From Roseobacter sp. (GTDB taxonomy: Bacteria; Pseudomonadota; Alphaproteobacteria; Rhodobacterales; Rhodobacteraceae), in NCBI RefSeq assembly GCF_024639605.1, contig NZ_JAHEHZ010000002.1:1-64000 (forward strand): DNA of 64,000 nucleotides, read 5' to 3'. Position 1 is the stretch's first letter, and every line of letters begins with the position of its first letter. Shown here piece after piece: positions 27,011 to 29,573 of this stretch. The notes beneath the pieces are model-generated. The model was not told the DNA's origin, ran no database searches, and saw only the letters and a list, made by a program, of their open reading frames with translations. A program made the position numbers and the translations under genes.

Positions 27011-27018
<8 letters not shown>
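26728..27018 (-). CDS. Small GNAT-family N-acetyltransferase (YjdJ type)
   Basis: This ~96-residue protein shows the single compact GNAT fold of the YjdJ type: [20 protein letters not shown] (acetyl-CoA pyrophosphate loop) and [21 protein letters not shown]. The track ORF begins inside scoB. I use a TTG at 27016-27018, which gives [19 protein letters not shown] and overlaps the scoB stop by 8 nt. No Shine-Dalgarno is visible, so expression would rely on coupling. The substrate is unknown. It is the last gene of the scoA-LOV-scoB run. Confidence 0.8.
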
Positions 27019-27637
<619 letters not shown>

Positions 27638-27644
27638 GAGGTTC

Positions 27645-28703
27645 CTATCCTGACAGGGACGCGCCGGCCGGCACGTCTATTGTGATAAAGCTGCCCGCCG
27701 CACCACGCCCGAGCTGCAGCGTGCCCTCCAGCCCTTCGATAAGGCCGTTGATGATGCGGCCACCGACGGTTTTGTCCGAAGGCCATTGCATATCCCGCGG
27801 AATACCGGTGCCGTCATCCGAGACGATCAGACGAAGACCACCAGCACTCAGCTGCGACATACGGAATTCCACCAGACCATTATCGAGCCGGTCAAAAGCG
27901 TGCTGAAACGCGTTCGTCAGCAATTCGGAGGCGACCAGCCCAACGCGGGTGGCCACTTCGATCGGCACCTCAGCGGGTTCGATCTGGATGCTCATGCGCA
28001 CGCCCGAGCGGCCTTCGATGTGGCAGATTGCACAGGCGAGCCGTGACATGAAGCTGCCCATGGGAATGGTACCCCGGTTGGACTGGTCATCCGAGAGCTT
28101 CATCTCTTCATACAGCAGCTGCAGGGTTTCGATCCGCCGGCTCAGGGCGGCAAAGTCATCAGGCACCGAGGTCGCCGACGACTGCTGCCGGATCATCGAG
28201 ATGATCATCGACAGATCAGTGTGCACGCGGTTCTGAACTTCCATAAGCTGTTCGTTGACCTTATCAGCCCCGGGCGCGCGCTCGCCCTTATTCAGCACTT
28301 TCTGGATGCCCATGAAGTACTGCACACGGCCCTTTGCATCCATGATCGGCGACACCACCAGCCGGTTCATAAAGGGCTCACCGTTCGAGCGGTAATTCAG
28401 GATATCAACTGCCACCGTCTCGTCGGCTTCGATATGTTTGCGCAATGCATCGACAGAGGCCTTCTCGGTGCTCTCGCCCTGGAGAAACCGGCAGTTGCGC
28501 CCGATGATCGCACTGCGCGGATAGCCGGTTGTCCGGGTAAAGGCCTGGTTGACGTAAACAATCGGGTTGTCTTCAAGATGCGGGTTGGTCAGAACCATCG
28601 ACACTTCAGCACGCGCAAAGCCGTCAAAGGCCCGGTCATCGAAAAAGAGCTCTTCTTCGCTGATGAGGTCGCTGTCGGCTGAGGTGTGATATGTATCTGC
28701 CAT
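27645..28703 (-). CDS. LOV-domain (blue-light) histidine-kinase-like protein inserted between scoA and scoB
   Basis: The 352-residue protein has an N-terminal LOV domain (about 30-135) with the flavin-adduct motif GRNCRFLQG; Cys71 is the predicted photoactive residue, and [13 protein letters not shown] and FMGIQ fit the LOV fold. A HisKA_2/HWE-like dimerisation region follows (about 148-205). Its H-box reads [12 protein letters not shown], where the family has HRVKNNL, so Asn158 replaces the phosphoacceptor His; another His sits at 161. The ATPase part is intact: [11 protein letters not shown] (N box), DDGTGIP and [16 protein letters not shown]. It may be a pseudokinase, or phosphorylate through another residue. 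Spacing of 14 nt from scoA and 7 nt to scoB indicates one operon. Confidence 0.88.
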
Positions 28704-28717
28704 CTGGTGATCCGGCC

Positions 28718-29413
28718 TCAGGCGGCCCGTGTTGTGCGCTGTTCAATGCGCTTTTCATGTGTGCCTTGAATCAGCCGGTGCACATAGATGCCCGGCAAGT
28801 GAATACTGTCTGCATCAAGACTGCCGGTTGGCACAATTTCTTCAACCTCGACCACACAGACCTTGCCGCACATCGCGGCAGGCGGGTTGAAATTGCGCGC
28901 GGTCTTGCGAAAGACGAGGTTGCCCGTCGGGTCGGCTTTCCAGGCTTTGACAATGCTGAGATCGGCGAAGATACCGCGCTCAAGGATATAGGTCTCGCCG
29001 TCGAAGTCTTTGTGCTCTTTGCCCTCTGCGATCACAGTGCCGACGCCTGTTTTCGTATAAAAGCCGGGGATGCCGCAGCCGGCCGCACGCATACGTTCGG
29101 CAAGTGTGCCCTGGGGGTTAAACTCAAGCTCAAGCTCACCGGACAGATACTGGCGCATGAATTCCGCGTTCTCTCCCACATAGGAGCTTATCATCTTTTT
29201 TACCTGTCGCGTCTGCAGCAGGATGCCGATGCCGAAATCATCCACGCCGGCGTTGTTGGACGCAAAGGTGAGGTCTTTGGTGCCGGCATCGCGGATTGCC
29301 GCAAGCAGCAGTTCAGGGATGCCACACAGGCCGAACCCGCCGGCGGCAATTGTCATACCGTCGTGCAGAACGCCATCAAGCGCCTCGGCGGCTGATCCGT
29401 AGACTTTCTTCAT
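28718..29413 (-). CDS. scoA: 3-oxoacid CoA-transferase subunit A
   Basis: The 231-residue alpha subunit shows the family motif IAAGGFGLCGIPELLLAAI near the N-terminus, followed by SNNAGVDDFGIGILL and ELEFNPQGTLAERMRAAG. It forms the heteromeric enzyme with ScoB. The start at ATG 29411-29413 has GGGGAT upstream; the ORF-track extension to 29473 is not supported. It is the first gene of the minus-strand run scoA, LOV protein, scoB, GNAT. Confidence 0.94.
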   Translation of the reverse strand: MKKVYGSAAEALDGVLHDGMTIAAGGFGLCGIPELLLAAIRDAGTKDLTFASNNAGVDDFGIGILLQTRQVKKMISSYVGENAEFMRQYLSGELELEFNPQGTLAERMRAAGCGIPGFYTKTGVGTVIAEGKEHKDFDGETYILERGIFADLSIVKAWKADPTGNLVFRKTARNFNPPAAMCGKVCVVEVEEIVPTGSLDADSIHLPGIYVHRLIQGTHEKRIEQRTTRAA

Positions 29414-29573
29414 TGTGCATCCCCAAAAACCGGTGGCTTGCCGGACTTTGCATCGCGTTGCCCGGGCTGTCAATCACGGCTGACAGCTACCTCGTGTTCC
29501 GTAGAATACCGTATCGCAGCCCGGGTCCGGGCGCAAAGGGTTTGCGGAAAGAGGACGGCAAACCGGGGCAGGT

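Follow-up and report, generated by a model that had tools for sequence, protein, structure and literature searches.

The LOV histidine kinase-like protein encoded in the window, the 64,000-nucleotide stretch of Roseobacter DNA analysed here, genuinely lacks the phosphoacceptor histidine and belongs to a kind of protein, LdaP, that was described recently. With a probability of about 0.82, we regard it as the counterpart of LdaP in Roseobacter, orthologous to it: a blue-light receptor that is soluble, derives from an EL346-like LOV kinase and works by binding the repressor PpsR. Orthology to LdaP (Dshi_1135) of Dinoroseobacter shibae is established from the open reading frame, synteny, the tree and the identity of Dshi_1135.

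The gene lies at 27645..28703 on the minus strand, as do all codons, domains and neighbouring genes given below, and encodes 352 amino acids arranged as LOV, DHp and CA. The LOV (PAS) domain (residues 28-136; 28296..28622) is matched by Pfam PAS_9 (69.5 bits) and by NCBIfam LOV models and is seen in the AF2 model, and the fold search returned LOV structures. Its motif GRNCRFLQ holds the photo-adduct cysteine, Cys71 (28491..28493), which equals Cys61 of Dshi_1135 (PMC10890935). A DHp-like helical hairpin follows (residues 146-205; 28089..28268), modelled by AF2 as helices 146-172 and 180-205, in which a Pfam HisKA_2 match begins at residue 155 with 21.0 bits, slightly under the 22.3-bit cut-off. 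The CA (HATPase) domain (residues 215-345; 27669..28061), also present in the AF2 model, matches Pfam HATPase_c (28.7 bits) and HATPase_c_2 (31.6 bits) at or above their cut-offs. Its ATPase boxes are intact, as the sequence-only reading had held: E260, N264 and H268 of the N-box (27894..27929), D296, D297, G298 and G300 of the G1 box DDGTG (residues 296-300; 27804..27818) and G314 and G315 of the G2 box (27759..27764) are all present. Glu replaces the first N-box Asn, as expected of functional HisKA_2/HWE kinases, and conservation across the boxes is 98-100%. The closest solved relative, by sequence and by fold, is EL346 (PDB 4R3A), the monomeric LOV histidine kinase of Erythrobacter litoralis (phmmer E 2.9e-87; Foldseek E 2.1e-34, 43% identity).

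Alignment and codons agree on the missing histidine. The phmmer alignment with EL346 runs without gaps across the H-box (residues 155-164; 28212..28241), which alignment and column conservation mark as degenerate in the window protein; the EL346 stretch aligned there is EVQHRVKNHLAMIVSMIR, and a shorter H-box segment in the same alignment is EVQHRVKNHLAMIV. Opposite His142 of EL346 stands Asn158 (AAC, 28230..28232), and a His occurs three residues on, His161 (CAC, 28221..28223); on both points the reading by eye was correct. In other words, the real kinase EL346 reads H-R-V-K-N-H at this site, whereas the window protein reads N-R-V-H-T-D and is without the phosphoacceptor His that the H-box (HRVKN) of a functional HisKA_2/HWE kinase contains. 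The change from His to Asn is not a sequencing error, because the histidine is replaced in 51 orthologue rows and the 93% identical orthologue of R. ponti (G155), the closest relative of the window genome, likewise has Asn158.

Loci for comparison came from family draws, a genome-contig scan and a genus set, and comprise 51 His-less rows and 25 His-bearing relatives. Residue 158 is N, D, S, R, A, E or G in the 51 His-less orthologues and H in the relatives outside their clade. In a careful tree built with the H-box columns removed, the 33 His-less rows included group into a single clade (bootstrap 99, SH-aLRT 94) with one change of state at 158, in which 98% of bootstrap trees concur. A larger quick tree also places all 51 His-less rows in one clade. 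The clade holds both Dshi_1135 and the window protein, separate from the His-bearing LOV histidine kinases. Given this single clade, the histidine was most likely lost a single time, in the common ancestor.

The residues around position 158 changed with it. The set H158-K161-N162-H163 is invariant in all 25 His-bearing relatives, whereas in the 51 His-less rows all four columns are released, save that 163 is Asp in 49. Asp163 (28215..28217 in the window protein) is thus a signature of the clade. Two loci without His158, L008 and L123, still keep His163, which suggests that D163 arose after the loss of His158. A second signature is residue 273 (27885-27887), which is Arg in 22/25 His-bearing relatives and Leu, Ile or Met in 49/51 His-less proteins. 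Over the same 51 rows Cys71, E260, D296, D297, G298, G300 and G315 are invariant, and N264, H268 and G314 stand at 98%. In the DHp and CA regions pN/pS is 0.02-0.25, and LOV, DHp and CA are all under purifying selection. Because the quartet was released while Cys71 and the ATP-box residues stayed fixed, we read the phosphate site as erased and the predicted light and nucleotide sites as retained. Of the three suggestions offered by the sequence-only reading, a light-gated pseudokinase therefore has good support: the protein has lost the acceptor His together with the adjacent Lys and Asn, it retains its LOV cysteine and ATP pocket, and no autophosphorylation was seen with the orthologue from D. 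shibae (PMC10890935).

One genome (G058) contains both forms, a His-less copy with Ser at the scoA-scoB locus (L008) and a His-bearing LOV kinase elsewhere (L152). In a His-bearing protein from another genome (L011, G062), Trp replaces the LOV cysteine (NWRFLLG). This protein has thus kept the kinase site and probably lost the light chemistry, a mirror image of the window protein.

What LdaP does is known from Pucelik et al. 2024 (PMC10890935), who found Dshi_1135 in a screen for colourless mutants of D. shibae and named it. Dshi_1135 has Arg148 at the position of EL346 His142, and its LOV domain undergoes a photocycle via Cys61. Autophosphorylation was not detected, with neither 32P incorporation nor a Phos-tag shift in the dark or under blue light. 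The protein binds PpsR and relieves PpsR repression of bchF in E. coli, in the dark only. In D. shibae the PpsR peptides per bait peptide were alike in dark and light (1/30, 7/229, 7/346), which leaves the Western blot and the E. coli reporter to carry the dark preference. Among the proteins that copurified with Dshi_1135 were RNA polymerase subunits and RpoD, but no response regulator (PMC10890935).

We identified our locus L005 as Dshi_1135 because the published mutagenesis primer sites flank its cysteine codon and its open reading frame has 338 residues, with Cys61 and Arg148. LdaP and the window protein share their architecture, the scoA-scoB locus, the clade, the missing acceptor His, the light cysteine and a host with bchF and ppsR. 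They differ in having Arg148 and Asn158, respectively, at the acceptor position, and they are 55% identical. From orthology we infer that the window protein acts likewise on its own PpsR, and with it a PpsR-binding surface and the polarity of the light response. An earlier sentence in Dikiy et al. 2023 (PMC10359499) mentions a subgroup of EL346-like LOV histidine kinases without the phosphoacceptor His; that sentence gives the subgroup no function, origin or partner. This subgroup is very probably the clade of the window protein.

The gene neighbourhood is also shared, with the order topA-scoA-LOV-scoB common to the window gene and Dshi_1135. The LOV gene lies between genes for the two subunits of a CoA-transferase (27011-29473): upstream scoA (subunit A; 28718..29413 with the start taken at MKK) and downstream scoB (subunit B; 27011..27637). 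Most His-less genera, and several His-bearing ones, retain this layout. We considered an obligatory link with ScoAB and rejected it, because the LOV gene stayed in many Roseobacter where scoA and scoB were lost: neither was found beside it at L037-L040, L042 and L044. At L046, L047 and L077 just a scoA remnant adjoins it. A TGT-N12-ACA motif of the PpsR type lies at 29468-29485, which is 55-72 bp before the probable start of scoA, and R. ponti has it as well. Control of a scoA-LOV-scoB operon by PpsR was nevertheless rejected, since the motif occurs at 9/76 loci and the window holds 10 such motifs against 8.3 expected by chance.

The partner of LdaP is present in the genome of the window. A ppsR gene scoring 404.6 bits (cut-off 275.4) lies on G000:C61, where it adjoins a ppaA-like frame and is divergent from bchF, with bchG-like, bchP and bchN frames around it; the ppaA-like frame has no NCBIfam match and takes its name solely from its position and sequence. 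Six TGT-N12-ACA motifs occur in the 11-kb stretch around ppsR, against 1.3 expected, and two of them fall in the gap between the ppaA-like frame and bchF. The genome thus contains both a cognate PpsR and its sites, and pufM is present as well.

Across one-per-genus draws, PpsR was found in 18/19 His-less genera, 12/22 His-bearing genera and 52/139 genomes without an orthologue. The difference is significant against the His-bearing genera (Fisher p 0.005) and against the genomes without an orthologue (1e-6), in tests that take no account of relatedness and, given one loss of the histidine, contain one independent pair. Within the genus the LOV gene is present in 18/19 genomes, and the sole member without it (G156) also lacks PpsR and PufM. 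The proteins of R. denitrificans OCh 114 (G151; locus L035, QNRVQSDL) and R. litoralis Och 149 (G154; L036) are of the LdaP type; these two genomes, like that of R. ponti, were recognised by replicons identical to plasmid records. Blue light was long ago observed to block bacteriochlorophyll synthesis in R. denitrificans (cited in PMC10890935). Since this species carries an LdaP-type protein, that protein is the leading candidate for the receptor behind the effect.

Some observations count against the LdaP reading, namely the presence of PpsR in those 12 His-bearing genera, the 55% identity to Dshi_1135, the like PpsR peptide counts of the D. shibae work in dark and light, and three exceptional genomes. 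G180 and G305 carry an LdaP-type protein and no detected PpsR; G180 has pufM, and G305 is 77% complete. The third, G158, is a single-contig genome of the Roseobacter group with an intact LdaP-type gene (L045) that has not accelerated, and neither PpsR nor PufM was found in it. Thus, photosynthesis may have been lost recently in this lineage, or the protein may have a second partner.

Taken as an orthologue of LdaP, the window protein would operate as an antirepressor that does not use phosphate. In the ancestor, the phosphotransfer site of an EL346-like LOV histidine kinase would have been erased once. In the dark, the kinase-like protein would bind PpsR, and the photosynthetic gene cluster would be derepressed. 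Blue light would form an adduct between the flavin and Cys71 and so change the arrangement of LOV, DHp and CA. The changed arrangement would release PpsR and turn the photosynthesis genes off in the light.

Alternatively, the protein could serve the general stress response as a ligand that needs no phosphate: it would bind PhyR or NepR, or titrate away a response regulator, and so act as a decoy under light control or a DivL-like sensor. Its kinase relatives EL346 and RT-HK act in that response (PMC10890935, PMC12148442), the window's genome encodes NepR, and DivL is a histidine pseudokinase able to sense a response regulator (PMC5361649). Counter to this, NepR was not found in the near-complete genomes G149, G140 and G158, which all have the His-less protein, and the first two have PpsR. 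A LOV kinase of the general stress response would be expected to keep its acceptor His and to have NepR/PhyR in every host; neither holds here. No response regulator was in the Dshi_1135 copurification, and no response regulator or partner-switch gene is an immediate neighbour of the LOV gene. We therefore consider this role improbable. Even less credit is due to an anti-sigma-like ATPase, as the sequence-only reading had also suggested, in the form of a light-controlled serine/threonine kinase or RsbW-type switch. The protein does match HATPase_c_2 above its cut-off, but so do 63/64 relatives, His-bearing ones included, so the match is not diagnostic of an anti-sigma role and lends the idea no specific support. 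The RsbW/SpoIIAB matches are weak, at 16-20 bits where curated cut-offs are 135-155, and the neighbourhood is without the partner-switch genes that such a system would bring. The polymerase subunits and RpoD that copurified with Dshi_1135 would suit an anti-sigma function, but they could also stem from crosslinked PpsR complexes at promoters.

Residual kinase activity is similarly hard to sustain. The intact ATP-binding residues, and the place of His161 about one helical turn past position 158, would allow autophosphorylation on His161 or on another residue. The sequence-only reading had asked whether N158 and H161 are conserved in orthologues: the absence of His at 158 extends to every His-less row, but His161 recurs in only 6/51. 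Its column takes E, R, H, Q, K, S, A, T, C, N or G within the clade and is Lys in 25/25 His-bearing relatives. Because His161 is not conserved, its use as a shifted acceptor is not supported, and given the negative 32P and Phos-tag results for the D. shibae orthologue in dark and blue light (PMC10890935), persisting autophosphorylation is very unlikely. Least probable of all is that we see a degenerating kinase heading for loss. Residue 158 and its neighbours do drift freely, as such decay would predict. Arguing against it are purifying selection on all three domains, the near fixation of D163 and the persistence of the gene through the genus, even where the adjoining scoA and scoB were lost.

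The LdaP reading has parallels in other systems. DivL of Caulobacter (PMC5361649) likewise uses the scaffold of a histidine kinase to signal with no phosphotransfer, but it reads a response regulator, whereas LdaP responds to light and binds a DNA-binding repressor. AppA, the BLUF antirepressor of Cereibacter sphaeroides (PMC10890935), resembles LdaP in that blue light controls PpsR binding; its photoreceptor is unrelated, a BLUF domain with FAD in place of LOV. The window's genome matches BLUF only in open frames that are short (150 and 218 residues).

With this finding LdaP, so far studied by experiment in one species, is extended to no fewer than 18 other genera of the family; its Roseobacter hosts include R. 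litoralis and strain OCh 114 of R. denitrificans. The most interesting remaining point is the conserved predicted ATP pocket of LdaP proteins. Tentatively, and with the odds against it, this pocket could be no relic but half of a two-input switch, in which the nucleotide state of CA together with light sets the affinity for PpsR and ties photosynthesis genes to energy charge. The loss of the H-K-N-H quartet, the near-fixed D163 and the replacement of R273 by a hydrophobic residue would then be steps by which a phosphotransfer site became a repressor-binding or nucleotide-coupled surface. The case as a whole shows how, in seemingly one evolutionary step, a kinase activated by light became a repressor trap that needs no phosphate in a mostly phototrophic clade of marine bacteria.
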